Source: an uncultured bacterium
GTDB taxonomy: Bacteria > Bacillota_I > Bacilli_A > Acholeplasmatales > Anaeroplasmataceae
Assembly (NCBI GenBank): GCA_949291115.1
Contig: CASETY010000003.1
Location: 1-64,000 of the forward strand
Reading direction: 5' to 3'
Length of the DNA stretch: 64,000 bases
Part shown: positions 16,486 through 58,029 of the stretch, one piece after another
How positions within the stretch are numbered: the stretch's first letter is position 1
How the letters are laid out: every line of letters starts with the position of its first letter
Notes under the pieces: generated by a model
Told to the model about the DNA's origin: nothing
Databases searched by the model: none
Seen by the model: the letters and a program-made list of their open reading frames with translations, nothing else
Position numbers and translations under genes: made by a program

Positions 16486-17574
16486 ATGAATGAAGAATTA
16501 GAAATAACGAAAGAAAATAAATTTAAAAAATTTTTAAAAAGAAAAAATATCAACATTTCTTTAAAAGCCTACTTTATTGATGCGATGGGGGCAATGGCAT
16601 TAGGTTTGTTTGCTTCTTTATTAATCGGTACGATTTTAGATACAATTGGTGATTTATCTAAAGTTAGCTTTTTTAATGATATCGGTAACTTTGCAAGCTT
16701 GGCATCTGGTGCTGCGATGGCAGTAGCGATAGGGTATGCTTTAAAGGCTCCCGCTTTAGTATTATTTAGCTTAGTAGCGGTTGGCTATAGTGCCAACGAG
16801 CTTGGCGGGGCTGGGGGGCCGATTGCAGTCTTATTAATAGCTATAATTGCTTGTGAATTTGGTAAAGTTGTTTCTAAAGAAACCAAAGTTGATATTTTAG
16901 TTACACCTTTAGTTGTTATATTAATAGGTTGTTCATTGAGCTTTTTAATTGCCCCTGGTCTTGGTAATTTAGCTTCTTATTTAGGAGAATTAATTAATAA
17001 AGCTACTACTTTACAACCTATCTTAATGGGTATTATAGTCAGTGCTTTAGTTGGCATTGCCCTTACCTTACCTATTTCTTCTGCTGCGATTTGTGCCGCT
17101 TTAGGTTTAACGGGTTTAGCTGGCGGGGCTGCTTTAGCGGGTTGCTGCGCGCAAATGGTTGGTTTTGCAGTTATGTCCTTTAAAGCGAATAGATGGGCTG
17201 GTATTGTTTCTCAAGGTATTGGTACTTCCATGTTACAAATGCCTAATATAGTTAAAAAACCTGTAATATGGTTGCCAACTATCTTAGCCAGTATGATTAC
17301 AGGACCTATTGCGACTACCGTTTTTCAATTACAAATGAATGGTCCAGCAATTGCTTCAGGAATGGGTACTTGTGGTTTAGTCGGCCCTATTGGTGTAGTA
17401 ACTGGTTGGCTAAATGATATAAATAGTGGTCTAAAAGATTCTATTACTGCTTTAGATATTACTGGCTTAATTTTAGTAGTTTTAGTATTACCAATAATTT
17501 TAACTTTAATCTTCCATTTTATTTGTTTAAAACTCAAACTTTATACAAATGATGATTTAAAATTAAATCTTTAA
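16486..17574 (+). CDS. PTS EIIC-like sugar permease (EIIC_2 family)
   Basis: A polytopic membrane protein of 362 residues with about nine or ten helices and a charged N-terminal extension. It resembles the stand-alone EIIC_2 family (small-residue-rich helices, GPIAVLLIAIIACEFGK and GTCGLVGPIGVVTGW motifs). No EIIA, EIIB or EI gene is nearby, so either it borrows PTS partners or it transports without phosphorylation. It faces the uronate operon and shares its operator region, so uptake of KDG, a unsaturated uronate or an oligouronide is a reasonable inference. RBS AAAGAGG. Confidence 0.75.
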   Translation: MNEELEITKENKFKKFLKRKNINISLKAYFIDAMGAMALGLFASLLIGTILDTIGDLSKVSFFNDIGNFASLASGAAMAVAIGYALKAPALVLFSLVAVGYSANELGGAGGPIAVLLIAIIACEFGKVVSKETKVDILVTPLVVILIGCSLSFLIAPGLGNLASYLGELINKATTLQPILMGIIVSALVGIALTLPISSAAICAALGLTGLAGGAALAGCCAQMVGFAVMSFKANRWAGIVSQGIGTSMLQMPNIVKKPVIWLPTILASMITGPIATTVFQLQMNGPAIASGMGTCGLVGPIGVVTGWLNDINSGLKDSITALDITGLILVVLVLPIILTLIFHFICLKLKLYTNDDLKLNL

Positions 17575-51936: not shown

Positions 51937-54183
51937 TTAATTATTATTAGTTAAATCACTATATTTAACGCCAATATATTCTTCTATTATTTCGTGAGTA
52001 ATTAATTCTTTATTTGTTTCAAATGAAGGAATATATAAGTCATAATATTCAATTAAGAAATCAACATTATCAGTTATATTCTTGTTAAGTGAAATAGTAA
52101 CATTATTTTCTTCTTTTATATCTGTTATTAAATCATCATAACAATCTTCTTGAACAAATAACATTGGAATTTTAACTTCAATTACTTCATATTCATTAGT
52201 TTCTTCATCTAAATAATAGAAATATTGACTACGCATTTCAATATCATAACGACGTGAAAGCATTCCTTTTTTCGACACAAATTGTTTACTACTATTATTA
52301 ACATAAATAGTATCATTATTTAAATCATTATCTTCACTACTGCCTTCGATAACTTTAATACTATTTATACCTTCTATATCGCTTAAATTAAACCATAATG
52401 TGTCATAGTTAATTATAGAAAGTTTTTCGTTTACTTCATAACCAATCAATTTACCAGTTGTCACATCATACATTTCAACAATAGTTCCAGTAAAACCAAT
52501 CATGCCAGATGCTTTATTACCAACAGTAATTAGTCTATCATGTGTGATGTAAAAATCTGCACAACTACTTTTAATTGTTGCGTCATCACCAACTGTCAAA
52601 TATTCATAAATATGGCCACTAACTAATCCAGCAGTGTTAGAAATATCAAAATAAGCTTCACCAATGCCTAAAAATTTATAAGCAAATGTAAATTTATTTT
52701 TAGCTATACTATAAGCAAGAGCATTGGCGTCACCTATCTGAATACGACCATCTACTACATTTTCTAAAATATCGTAGCTAATCATAACTTCTATGTTTTG
52801 TTTGCCTAATAATGGTATATTAGTAGTAAATCCTAATACATAGAATAATGTGTTATCAACTAGATTAATAGTCACATCATAAGTACCATATTTAAAATCA
52901 TAACTTGCGGTATCACTAGGATTACTATCAATATAGTTTTGGAAAGCAGTAATGCTTGCTGATGTAACTGTATCAAGGGTCGTTAATACATTAAAGAATA
53001 CTTTACTTTGGTTTAAGTTAGAAATAACCATATTCCATTGTTCACCAAAACCACCATAATTAATTGAACTTACATCAACAAAGTTAGTAAAATCATAATT
53101 AACATCTTCTAAATTTACTAAATTTGCTTCATAACCTGGTTGCAATGTTTTTGGAATATAACTATATGGATTAACCTTAATCATACTAACAAGTGATTTT
53201 AAATATTCAACAACGTTAACTTTAGGATTAAATTTAGCATATAATACTAAATTACTGTTAACTTTAGTTTTAAAATCAAATTCTACTTCTTTTTCTTCAT
53301 CAATACACCAACAAATAAAATTATAACCTTCTAATTTAGGTGCTTCTGGTTCAACTACTAAACCACCTGCTTCAATGATTTGACTATTAATAGGGTTGCA
53401 TCCTTCTGGTAAAACAAAGCTAACTGTATAAGTTTTAGGGTCTTCTTCAATAACTTCATTCCATTTAGCAAATAATGTTAAATTAGTTGTAACAGCTGAT
53501 TCGAAATTATAACGAGTTGTTAAAGCTACATCTGTATACCAACCACCAAATGTATAACCATCTCTAGTTGGATCGCCAGGTTTGGTAACTTTAGCACCTT
53601 CATCAACAGTTTGACTAGCAACTGCACTACCGCCATTAGAATTGAAAGTAACTGTTACTTTAGTTGCAGCTTCTTCAACTTTTTCCCATTTTGCGTATAA
53701 TGTTAAGTTACCAGTTACAACTGTCTTAAAATCATACTCTTTAGTTAAAGCAGAATCAGTATACCAACCTTTAAATGTATAACCATCTCTAGTTGGGTTA
53801 GTAGGTTTGGCAACAGTTTTGCCATTTTCTACTTCTTGTGCCTTAACTTCACTACCACCATTAGAGTTGAATGTAACGGTATATGTTTCGTCTTCAACTT
53901 CTTTTGCTATTTTGTCAAATACAGCTACATATTTTTGGTCTTTATCAACTTTATATAAGTCTGGAGACCACTTTTCAAATCGATAATAATAATCATCATC
54001 TTCAGCTTTTGTTGGAGTAGAGCCATTATATTCAGGCATTGTTCCTTCTTCAACATTATTGTCAGTTTCTATAATTTTGCCTTCTACTTCCCAAGTAATA
54101 GTATAAGTATTTGTTTTATCACCAACACAAGCTACTAAGATTATAAGCAATCCTAGTATTAAAAAACTAAAAACTTTTTTCAT
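51937..54183 (-). CDS. Surface lipoprotein with InlB-type (Flg_new) beta-repeats, 748 residues
   Basis: Lipobox LVACVG near residue 20, then four InlB-B/Flg_new repeats (about 28-330). Two are nearly identical: TFNSNGGS near the start, PTRDGYTFKGWYTD or FGGWYTD in the middle, and NLTLYAKW at the end. Repeat one and four are more divergent. Residues 335-748 form a distinct domain of unknown function. Such proteins are typically cell-surface and attachment related. Four bases of coding gap separate it from the DUF304-like gene upstream. Confidence 0.88.
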   Translation of the reverse strand: MKKVFSFLILGLLIILVACVGDKTNTYTITWEVEGKIIETDNNVEEGTMPEYNGSTPTKAEDDDYYYRFEKWSPDLYKVDKDQKYVAVFDKIAKEVEDETYTVTFNSNGGSEVKAQEVENGKTVAKPTNPTRDGYTFKGWYTDSALTKEYDFKTVVTGNLTLYAKWEKVEEAATKVTVTFNSNGGSAVASQTVDEGAKVTKPGDPTRDGYTFGGWYTDVALTTRYNFESAVTTNLTLFAKWNEVIEEDPKTYTVSFVLPEGCNPINSQIIEAGGLVVEPEAPKLEGYNFICWCIDEEKEVEFDFKTKVNSNLVLYAKFNPKVNVVEYLKSLVSMIKVNPYSYIPKTLQPGYEANLVNLEDVNYDFTNFVDVSSINYGGFGEQWNMVISNLNQSKVFFNVLTTLDTVTSASITAFQNYIDSNPSDTASYDFKYGTYDVTINLVDNTLFYVLGFTTNIPLLGKQNIEVMISYDILENVVDGRIQIGDANALAYSIAKNKFTFAYKFLGIGEAYFDISNTAGLVSGHIYEYLTVGDDATIKSSCADFYITHDRLITVGNKASGMIGFTGTIVEMYDVTTGKLIGYEVNEKLSIINYDTLWFNLSDIEGINSIKVIEGSSEDNDLNNDTIYVNNSSKQFVSKKGMLSRRYDIEMRSQYFYYLDEETNEYEVIEVKIPMLFVQEDCYDDLITDIKEENNVTISLNKNITDNVDFLIEYYDLYIPSFETNKELITHEIIEEYIGVKYSDLTNNN

Positions 54184-54956: not shown

Positions 54957-55330
54957 TTAAATGTATTTTATCATTTTATAATTATTCAAACCTATACCAT
55001 CACGATAAACTGTTTGTTCATTTAGAATTTCATATCCTCTTTTTAAGAAAAAGTCTTTAGCTGTAATTGAAGCATCAACAGTAATGTCTTTATTTATATA
55101 TCCTTCTAATTTATTACATATAATGGTAGCAACACCCTTGTTTTGATAATTAGGATCTACATATAACATATTTAAATAACCATCACTAATATCACCAAAG
55201 CCGATAGTCTTTCCATCCATACTAGCAATTAAAGAATAATGAGATTCAAATATTTTAATTTATTTTTCTTTATTAGCTCCTTTAGCCAAACTTCTATTTG
55301 CTTTTCATTATAATCTTTCTTACAAGTAAT
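54957..55330 (-). pseudogene. GNAT acetyltransferase remnant 2 (YafP-like), 5' part lost and frame broken
   Basis: The open part (55220 down to 54957, 87 residues, MDGKTIGFGDISDGYLNMLY, NKGVATIICNKLEGY, SITAKDFFLKRGYE) is the C-terminal two thirds of a YafP-like acetyltransferase. The missing upstream piece DYNEKQIEVW is present but in the frame of the previous gene; one extra G after TGG would give VWAKGANKEK and continue, after an in-frame TAA, into IKIFESHYSLIAS. So a deletion, a one-base loss and a stop codon separate the parts. Confidence 0.75.
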
Positions 55331-55753
55331 TTTAATTTGATAAGGATTACCTTGTTCATCCAAATCTTCTCTTTTATAATCATAAAAACCATGTTTTAAA
55401 TAAAATTTATGTGCTTCTTTATTTTCTTCATTAACAACTACTTCATTAATATTATAATTTTTAAATGCATAATCTAATAATTTACTTCCACTATCTTTAC
55501 CTCTTAAATTATTATCAACAAATAACATTTCTAGTTTAGTATTATTAGCACCTATAAAACCAAGAGGATTATCTTTTTCATAACAGACTATTAAGTTAAA
55601 AACTAGCTTAATAGCTATTGGTACATATTGTTTAACATTATTAATTTCTTCTTCACTTAAGAAAATATGGCTACCTTTCTCTGATCTATGCCATAGATTA
55701 ACTAGTTAATTTATTAAGTTTATATTTTTGTCTACAATATGTTTAATCTGCAT
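55229..55753 (-). pseudogene. GNAT acetyltransferase remnant 1, nonsense codon near the start
   Basis: From ATG 55753 a single frame encodes MQIKHIVDKN, then TAA at 55706-55708 (codon 16), and then continues LVNLWHRSEKGSHIFLSEEE and a full acetyltransferase core (MLFVDNNLRGKDSGSKLLDYAF, EAHKFYLKHGFYDYKRED). A GAA to TAA change would explain it. The 3' end (after NPYQIK) runs directly into a piece of the second acetyltransferase, pointing to a deletion between two neighbouring genes. Confidence 0.8.
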
Positions 55754-55820: not shown

Positions 55821-55871
55821 AAAAGTCTGAATACTCGTTATGAGCTTCAGACTTTAGTTTCTAATTTGTGG
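55821..55871. repeat. 51-bp direct repeat, distal copy (duplicate of the tRNA-Leu 3' flank)
   Basis: Identical over 51 bases to 57895-57945. It contains the hairpin AGTCTGAA/TTCAGACT, which is the terminator of tRNA-Leu in the other copy, and ends (on the minus strand begins) with the CCA of the tRNA end. No tRNA body adjoins this copy. It may be an attachment site left by integration at the tRNA 3' end, or the rest of a lost tandem tRNA. Confidence 0.9.
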
Positions 55872-56138
55872 CTAAATATACCCATTGTGATGCACTTGCG
55901 ACCCCTATTTCAAGATGCAACCCCTACATAAGGTGTTTATTACTATAGCCTCACTTACCTATATTGTTATAAAAAGTTTTTAGTGCAAAATCACGTGCTA
56001 AAAATTTGTAGAAGGTAGAATGTTTAGTCATTTATGCTCAATCAATGTTAAATTACAGCCAAATTTTATTAAAGAGCCATTTAATTTTCTTCGTTTTTCT
56101 CTTTGTCTTTTGCCTGCTTTTGGCGGCTTAATCCGTTG
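55872..56138. other. Gene-free stretch between the distal repeat and the lipoprotein stop
   Basis: No convincing ORF or RNA gene. On the minus strand two similar words follow each other, TAGGGGTTGCATCTTGAA and TAGGGGTCGCAAGTGCATCA (about 55890-55935), unlike the AT-rich surroundings. Minus-strand translation past the lipoprotein stop gives another 25-30 basic residues before the next stop, which may be a former C terminus. Confidence 0.4.
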
Positions 56139-57464
56139 TTACCGTATGCCATTTTCTGACGTATCGGCTTTTAGAAGTACGTCCGTAAATTTGCCGCGTT
56201 TTGCGGCACTTATAACTTTGTATTTGTCCGCGTTTAAGTTTTCTATCAGTTTTGTATCATCATTGTCGGTTAGCGCTTCTTGAATTATTATGGCAATTTC
56301 TTCATAGCCGTTCTCTGCTAAATTCATAACCACTATTCGTCTTGCCTTCCCTAATGTTGTATCTTCCGTAGATTCATCATCTCTTATAATAAATGAGCGG
56401 GTATTCCTGCCAACTGCTAAGATAATGCCGTCATTCGCAAGTTTCTCATTGACCGCATTTAACAATCTTTTTCGCATCTCCTGTATTGTAGGGTTATAAC
56501 CAAAAGCATATTCAGTAAAATATTTGGCGCCGTTGACATAAGGAGTTCCTCTGTCGAATGCTTCGTCAAGTTTTGCGGCGTCAGGGTTTTCGGTTAACAA
56601 ATCCTGTAAAGTTATTTCCGTTTTAGGTTCAACGCAAGCTATTCTGTAAAGCATCGAAATTATTGCGTTATCGTAGAAGAAATGTAGTTTTATGCAATCG
56701 ATAATACCATTTTTATCGCTATCAACGACTTCCCATTGTTCGATTTGAACGCTATTTATATTGTATTTGCCAACTGTATTATATAGCATATCTTCGAGCA
56801 AATGGTCGTTCAAGGTTTTAACGACGACTGCCTGATACTTCTCGTTACCCTCTTGCATAAGTTCATTCAACGTAGTAGGGAGAGTCTCTTCGGGTATAGC
56901 CCTATAACCGCACACGCAAACGCCGTCCGCATTATACGAATGTTCCGCTTTCCCGCTTATCTCATCGCTATGTTCACAGGTAGCTTCATGCCAATGATAC
57001 GTTTCATTTGTTGTCCATTCTTCAGAGTAGCTATGTCCAGTAGCGTCGATTGGTTCAGTCCTTGTAGTTTCACACACTGTACAGGTATAAGTTTTTACAC
57101 CTGGTTCTAGGCAAGTTGCTGGAGTGGTAATTTTACCATCATCCCAACTATGTCCTGTAGCATTAATAGTTTCAGTTTTTGTTGCATCACAGGTAGTGCA
57201 GGTATAAGTCATTACACCATCAGTTTCGCATCCTTCAGGGGTAGTAACTTCACCACTATCCCATGTATGTTCAGCATAACTATCTCTTTCACCGCTATGC
57301 TCACAAGTAGCTGCGTGCCAGTGATGAGTGTCATCTGATGTCCATTCCTCAGCAAAAGTATGAGTGTGTGCTTCTTCTTGAGGACCACATGAAGTAAGAG
57401 TCACTGAGGACACTACACCAGCGAATATTCCAAGGGTAACTAATATTTTACTTACTAATCTCAT
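56139..57464 (-). CDS. Lipoprotein with Cys/His/Trp-rich repeats and a compositionally distinct C-terminal domain
   Basis: About 441 residues. Lipobox TLTSC after MRLVSKILVTLGIFAG. Residues 30-185 hold two kinds of repeats: HWHAATCEHSGE and HWHEATCEHSDE blocks, and YTCTTCDATKTE or YTCTVCETTRTE followed by ATGHSW, a type common in surface proteins of gut Firmicutes. The C-terminal half (about 200-441) is a different domain with no recognised motif, encoded with more GCG, CCG and TCC codons. ATG 57464 follows AAAGGAGA; an in-frame TTG at 57485 is in front of that site. It lies between the 51-bp repeats. Confidence 0.82.
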   Translation of the reverse strand: MRLVSKILVTLGIFAGVVSSVTLTSCGPQEEAHTHTFAEEWTSDDTHHWHAATCEHSGERDSYAEHTWDSGEVTTPEGCETDGVMTYTCTTCDATKTETINATGHSWDDGKITTPATCLEPGVKTYTCTVCETTRTEPIDATGHSYSEEWTTNETYHWHEATCEHSDEISGKAEHSYNADGVCVCGYRAIPEETLPTTLNELMQEGNEKYQAVVVKTLNDHLLEDMLYNTVGKYNINSVQIEQWEVVDSDKNGIIDCIKLHFFYDNAIISMLYRIACVEPKTEITLQDLLTENPDAAKLDEAFDRGTPYVNGAKYFTEYAFGYNPTIQEMRKRLLNAVNEKLANDGIILAVGRNTRSFIIRDDESTEDTTLGKARRIVVMNLAENGYEEIAIIIQEALTDNDDTKLIENLNADKYKVISAAKRGKFTDVLLKADTSENGIR

Positions 57465-57525
57465 ATCGATTGTCTCCTTTTTCAATAGTTTTTTATACGA
57501 TATAAATTGTTGTTTGATCTCTTCC

Positions 57526-57756
57526 TTAGTATGAGTGGTACACTACACTAGTATGCAGTATCTTCCTACCTAAATTATATCTTGCCATTATCAAAATTGT
57601 CTTAATCCTTAAGCGTAGTATAGCATAAAAGCTAGTTTTTATCGACCCTTCTTGTTCATTTTTCTCAAATAGCGTCTCATCTTTTTCCCCACCACTCCCC
57701 CTTCTACTAGCTGGTAAGCCTAATATAACAGAGAAAAGTTCGCACTGAGAAAGCAT
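57526..57756 (-). other. G-rich leader region with a doubtful 76-codon ORF
   Basis: The minus strand has an open frame of 76 codons (MLSQCELFSVILGLPAS and so on) without a good ribosome site. It spans a purine/G-rich block GGGGGAGTGGTGGGG (about 57690-57704), unusual for this genome, and a promoter inside its 3' half (57617-57645). An upstream TTGAGG-16-TATACT pair near 57785-57815 could start a longer transcript. I regard the region as a leader or transferred noncoding segment rather than a gene. Confidence 0.35.
57617..57645 (-). promoter_or_regulatory. Promoter of the island lipoprotein
   Basis: TCGATA (57640-57645), 17-base spacer, TATACT (57617-57622) on the minus strand, giving a leader of about 145 bases that includes an inverted repeat near 57530-57555 (TAGTGTAGTG with CACTCATACTA). 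Confidence 0.6.
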
Positions 57757-57894
57757 TTTCTTTCACGGTATTCTCTAAATTTTTTTAGTATAATCAAACA
57801 TATGGTCACCTCAAATGGTTATCAGTATTTCAACATCAACTAGGTTTAATTTCGATATTTTCATAGAACTTTTACAGGATTTTTTCTCAAAAAG

Positions 57895-57945
57895 AAAAGT
57901 CTGAATACTCGTTATGAGCTTCAGACTTTAGTTTCTAATTTGTGG
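57895..57945. repeat. 51-bp direct repeat, tRNA-proximal copy (tRNA-Leu CCA end plus terminator)
   Basis: Same 51 bases as 55821-55871. Here it begins, on the minus strand, with the encoded CCA of tRNA-Leu and contains the AGTCTGAA/TTCAGACT hairpin followed by UUUU, the natural terminator of the tRNA gene. Confidence 0.9.
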
Positions 57946-58029
57946 TGCCGGTGGTGGGACTCGAACCCACACACCCTCGCGGATAACAGATTTTGAGTCT
58001 GTCTCGTCTACCAATTCCGACACACCGGC
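57943..58029 (-). tRNA. tRNA-Leu (anticodon CAA)
   Basis: Type II tRNA with a long variable arm. Acceptor arms GCCGGTG/CACCGGC, discriminator A and an encoded CCA (57943-57945). Anticodon loop CTCAAAA gives anticodon CAA, reading UUG. T arm GGTTCGAGTCC is standard. Promoter at 58054-58082. Confidence 0.97.

Follow-up and report, generated by a model that had tools for sequence, protein, structure and literature searches.

We propose that positions 55821–57945 of the window (the whole 64-kb stretch of DNA that was analysed) are probably what is left of a cassette, now immobile, that had inserted at the 3' end of a tRNA-Leu(CAA) gene, and that the family to which this cassette belongs is moved by serine recombinases. 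The family is apparently widespread in gut bacteria and so far undescribed. The preliminary description of the segment had seen in it what a minimal mobile element would leave at a tRNA 3' end, and the comparison with other genomes, nearly all of which are metagenome assemblies, bears this out: the ends of the segment recur in the genus and beyond, empty sites exist, and the cargo was recently transferred.

The target gene, tRNA-Leu(CAA), was located at 57943–58029 on the minus strand by ARAGORN and Rfam, its CCA occupying 57943–57945. A 51-bp sequence running from this CCA to the T tract of the tRNA terminator is present in two copies on the minus strand, R1 next to the tRNA (57895–57945) and R2 at the distal end (55821–55871). 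As the preliminary description stated, the two form a direct repeat identical over all 51 bp that begins at the CCA end and covers the terminator. No other same-strand repeat of at least 30 bp exists in the 64-kb window, which excludes chance, and no third copy was found in the 1.13-Mb genome. With two genomic copies only, the repeat is not a generic terminator scattered widely, the situation named beforehand as speaking against an element. A transposon target-site duplication is likewise ruled out, the flanks being different in intact relatives. Scattering does occur among other terminator types of the cassette family, the reason being that they make up the left halves of elements. The suggestion of an attachment core made up of the 51-bp repeat did not hold, since the left and right terminators differ in the intact relatives L205, L198 and G003, where tRNA and right end share the CCA only. 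R2 is the displaced native 3' flank of the tRNA-Leu gene and constitutes the chromosomal half of attR. The flank formed by R1 is of the native type, lacking a TGATAC motif at +17, and tRNA and R1 together have, judging from their sequence, the form of an intact attB.

On the minus strand, the tRNA is followed by R1, a left inner end (from 57892 downwards), a broken regulator gene and a lipoprotein gene, then by the left arm region in a displaced copy, the last codons of an AP2/HNH gene, two G-rich repeats, the motif GCATCA-N17-CA and R2. Both end regions match other loci of the genus, and the matches stop at 57892–57893 on the left and at 55869 on the right. The left inner end, segment a (57847–57892; TTTTTGAGAAAAAATCC..., a promoter region), is conserved in the family. 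Of the XRE-type regulator gene conserved in the element, the start is present at 57775–57801 (MFDYTKKI-stop), here a pseudogene with a stop after eight codons; the gene is intact in L205 and G006:C13. Segment b (55962–56067), which copies the arm region at the left end of the family and matches G002:C18 at 80%, is displaced and now lies to the right of the cargo. It is followed by the last codons (AATATAGGTAA, 55955–55965) of the AP2/HNH-type gene that occupies the right end in relatives, and by two 10-bp AGGGGTYGCA repeats (AGGGGTTGCA/AGGGGTCGCA) placed 19 bp apart at 55897–55925, which belong to the conserved right end. These repeats are the G-rich "leader" noticed earlier; the G-rich stretch is real, but it lies behind the lipoprotein gene on that gene's strand. 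The element half of attR, GCATCA-N17-CA, spans 55869–55893 with the core CA at 55869–55870, and the right attachment site is intact. The expected left site, CA-N17-TGATAC with its arms, is missing from the window, and R1 stands in its place. R1 and the left end meet within ACTTTT, a stretch also found in the final arm repeat of relatives, and this suggests a deletion. As the left half-site and arms are lost and a native-type R1 adjoins the tRNA, the remnant should no longer be able to excise by the route proposed below. Beside R2, window positions 54957–55528 hold two fragments of a GNAT acetyltransferase gene, broken by frameshift or stop, and a GNAT-like fragment seems to be present in the L198 cassette too. 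A large lipoprotein with Listeria-Bacteroides (InlB-like) repeats is encoded at 51937–54183.

The cargo is a lipoprotein gene (56139–57464, minus strand) whose product has a signal peptide with Cys and HxW/CxxC repeats; no family assignment was obtained above the cut-off in Pfam, nor any in PHROGs or NCBIfam. Its GC content of 40.5% ranks first among 627 windows of equal size (mean 28.5%, s.d. 3.4), in line with the GC richness reported earlier, and a recount of positions 56161–56220 gave 43.3% for the roughly 43% first noted. The absence of an integrase between the repeats was also confirmed for the enclosed segment. The lipoprotein has its closest relatives in two congeneric species. Over 966 nt, its gene is 91% identical in DNA to one on G003:C23; the core gene beside the tRNA, for a glycosyltransferase, reaches a protein identity of just 56% with G003, a difference that marks the gene as horizontally acquired and, at the level of sequence comparison, the cargo as recently moved between species.

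The preliminary description had proposed looking for an empty site in related genomes, and two were found: in G002:C1 and G006:C4, tRNA-Leu(CAA) and its terminator lead directly to a UmuC-type gene. The locus holds other insertions in G004 and G003, the latter apparently a prophage split over contigs C46 and C20. In G007 a tyrosine recombinase pseudogene lies at the probable tRNA-Leu(CAA) locus. The tRNA-Glu(CTC) gene of G001 is occupied, with a tyrosine recombinase 160 bp away and terminator copies that are 95% alike over about 100 bp; this island is apparently nested or composite and divided between two contigs. The same island (L148, G001:C3:1-4000; L096, G001:C1:1-10000) also contains an HsdR-type gene.

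Scanning the genome collection with a 24-base right-end pattern retrieved 25 other contigs, from metagenome-assembled genomes labelled Bacilli, Acholeplasmatales and Clostridia, and none among the viral contigs. The right end consists of GGGGTYGCA repeats followed by GCATCA-N17-CA. Conservation reaches the CA in 24 of the 25 contigs, as CCA or TCA, and each base as far as the final A carries about 2 bits of information, those beyond it at most 0.8. The flanks beyond fall into 17 unrelated types, most with a terminator-like hairpin, and similar cassettes stand before different flanks (L198, L200 and L212; L208 and L213). A complete cassette of 3.2 kb, L205, lies at a tRNA-Glu(TTC) gene and carries no recombinase. 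According to gene names read from translations, it comprises, in this order behind the tRNA, a terminator, three 20-bp arm repeats, an XRE regulator, methyltransferase-like and DUF262/HNH-like genes, GGGGTYGCA repeats and the right end. The window's own genome has a second right end of the family (G000:C10:47035-47112; L101, near 17036-17113); it has the tail of an AP2 gene, its flank is unrelated, and the contig stops short of the left end. A Cys-rich/AP2 protein (HNH endonuclease in PHROGs) is conserved at the right end (L097:6397-6995, L211, L113:9321-9770), and the last codons of its gene persist even where cassettes have lost the gene. At the left ends of L304–L309, at many tRNAs of relatives in the order, the position taken in the genus by the arm repeats is occupied, beside the terminator, by another repeat type of roughly 20 bp (TACACGATTACA...).

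On the tRNA side, TGATAC occurs at exactly +17 after the CCA in nearly all island tRNAs and in none of 11 other tRNA flanks, a comparison that is partly circular because similarity searches supplied most of the island flanks. The right-end scan and the class-wide scans are independent of that search. TGATAC stands at exactly +17 in 12 of the 24 flanks behind right ends, spread over five independent types of flank, a result that none of 2000 shuffles attained; a share of one half is what tandem insertions would be expected to give. The right end carries GCATCA or GTATCA at a distance mirroring TGATAC, and the joined ends read GTATCA-N17-CA-N17-TGATAC, an imperfect palindrome of about 48 bp centred on CA. 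A tRNA-like pattern, TTCRA-N15-CCA-N17-TGATAC, was found in 145 of the 395 genomes of the class; its N19 shifted control was found in 23 of 395, mostly outside tRNAs. The palindromic junction itself occurs in 73 of 395 genomes, with about 100 precise junctions against a single hit for the reversed control. Six junctions, one with GTATTA, lie in tandem over 23 kb in G075 (G075:C7:284769-307910; L332–L333), separated by metal-transporting ATPases, ArsR-type regulators and insertion sequences as read by eye from translations, and three in tandem in G034. The G075 array also contains a fragment of a serine recombinase. A tmRNA gene 3' end with a CCA-N17-TGATAC flank was seen in L305 (G089:C1 near 856139). 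That TGATAC is a mere terminator stem is made less plausible by the mirrored GTATCA half and the CA core; the TGATAC half overlaps the terminator stem, and part of its conservation could reflect terminator function.

In six islands, the tRNA and the right end have only CCA or ACCA in common (3–4 nt), with 2–7 matches in the 20 nt before the CCA. The base that precedes CA is variable, which points to CA as the likely core. Tyrosine integrases require a longer common overlap, serine integrases two bases; sharing only the CCA therefore argues against a tyrosine integrase. An identical core of 2–3 bp between the partner sites and an attP-like palindrome of about 50 bp around it are both as expected of large serine integrases. 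Candidates for such an enzyme are found on G003:C20, which sits in the tRNA-Leu(CAA) locus with umuC downstream and carries head, tape-measure and tail genes: two large serine recombinases of 431 and 525 aa, 1.7 kb before a right end, each with Resolvase, Recombinase and zinc ribbon Pfam domains above the cut-off. For both, CcrB is the nearest NCBIfam model, with scores of 143 and 120 bits where the cut-off is 900. The second of them recurs before a right end in L195 (89% identity over 162 aa), and a 49% homologue lies 274 nt from a junction in G070. The window's own genome has no close homologue of the pair. Most homologues in the order (55–60% identical) are followed by other genes with no right end nearby, so that the link between recombinase and ends rests on three loci and homology alone does not predict the site. 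From this association we infer that a Ccr-like serine recombinase pair likely acts on these ends.

Insertion at the tRNA-Leu(CAA) 3' end would most likely have taken place at the CA of the CCA. Members of the family carry at their right end (GGGGTYGCA)n followed by GCATCA/GTATCA-N17-CA, and at their left end CA-N17-TGATAC within a terminator that substitutes for the displaced one and so keeps the tRNA gene functional. A circle joining both ends would generate the palindromic attP of about 48 bp with its CA core. The Ccr-like pair encoded by some members, such as the prophage, would most likely recombine this attP with the tRNA 3' half, and would most likely move the integrase-free cassettes in trans. 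Repeated insertion at one tRNA would then build tandem arrays.

The identity of R1 and R2 is not predicted by this cassette model. R1 could possibly derive from a nested tyrosine-integrase element with a terminator in its attP, as apparently at the G001 tRNA-Glu, from illegitimate recombination with incoming empty-site DNA, or from an earlier second tRNA-Leu copy. Extending the first of these to the whole segment, as an ordinary tyrosine-integrase tRNA island with CCA and terminator in attP and the 51-bp repeat as identity block, seems unlikely to us. The R1/R2 identity from the CCA to the T tract, the similar 95% flank repeat and nearby tyrosine recombinase in G001, the recombinase pseudogene in G007, and repeats of about 20 bp at both ends that look like arm sites all fit such an island; yet the differing terminators of L205, L198 and G003 do not, the right end repeats nothing of the tRNA beyond a CCA too short for a 6–8 bp overlap, and the search near the right ends yielded serine recombinases but no tyrosine recombinase. 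As the source of the extra copy R1, a tyrosine-integrase island may be the explanation.

Somewhat less likely still is the entry of the cassette into a second, tandem tRNA-Leu(CAA), that copy and the left end being later deleted to leave tRNA-R1, the right end and R2. This history accounts exactly for R1 being equal to R2, and the ACTTTT joint, which recurs in the final arm repeat of relatives, fits the deletion, but all relatives examined have a single tRNA-Leu(CAA) at the locus and the segment holds no tRNA remnant; it concerns the origin of R1 only and leaves the cassette itself unaffected. We consider it very improbable that no mobile element is involved and that tRNA terminators with TGATAC stems spread by gene conversion, the segment being a local rearrangement. 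TGATAC does belong to terminator stems, and the terminators of several tRNAs are alike; against this stand a GTATCA right half and CA core conserved with no terminator role, the excess of precise junctions over the control, similar cassettes at different sites and flanks, and the transfer of cargo between species.

The serine-recombinase cassettes proposed here resemble several known systems. The staphylococcal cassette chromosome (SCC), with CcrA/CcrB or CcrC, works similarly at rlmH. The likeness lies in the sizes of the paired recombinases, in CcrB as their nearest NCBIfam model, in restriction-modification and metal transport cargo and in composite arrays; the present family differs from SCC in having recombinase scores far under the Ccr cut-offs and no ccrAB or ccrC genes, and in targeting tRNA 3' ends instead of the rlmH 3' end. 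Integron cassette arrays also have tandem cassettes with a conserved recombination site between them; the present family is set apart by the double-strand palindrome with its CA core and the serine recombinases proposed here. The ssrA islands of Dehalococcoides, in a study that also discusses SCC, form tandem arrays with the serine recombinases DsiA/DsiB, and islands lacking this module are attributed to accretion (PMC3146451). They share with the present family the recombinase pair, a tRNA-like 3' target, the arrays and the module-less islands, but use the single target ssrA, with insertion in the T-loop and a 20-bp repeat (PMC3146451), whereas our cassettes target the CCA of many different tRNAs, and that of one tmRNA, with CA as the likely core, and bring their own left-end terminator. 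Like the tyrosine-integrase tRNA islands of the Islander type (PMC4383910), they keep the tRNA functional and mark their far end by the displaced 3' flank; unlike these (PMC4383910), they have no tRNA fragment at the far end beyond the CCA (3–4 nt). A tyrosine integrase gene is absent from the window segment, L205 and L198, and one is present at the G001 tRNA-Glu. We found no description of the present family in the open literature, to which the search was confined.

On balance, and with only somewhat more confidence than doubt, we favour a class-wide reading in which gut Bacilli harbour cassette arrays anchored at tRNA and tmRNA genes, where Ccr-like pairs of prophages and other elements would target the CCA of many tRNAs and move integrase-free cassettes in trans, each cassette bringing its own terminator and a cargo of restriction systems, metal transporters or surface proteins. 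Mobile DNA classically lands at tRNA genes, and according to a reference database (PMC4383910) tyrosine integrases alone are known to do so. If our reading is correct, tRNA genes would for the first time be known as targets of a serine integrase family, and a serine system that reads the CCA region alone would have many tRNA genes of each cell within reach. As an integration tool, it may work without long target identity and keep the tRNA functional, and it would explain defence and metal-transport islands of uncultured gut Bacilli that integrase-based island finders have missed.
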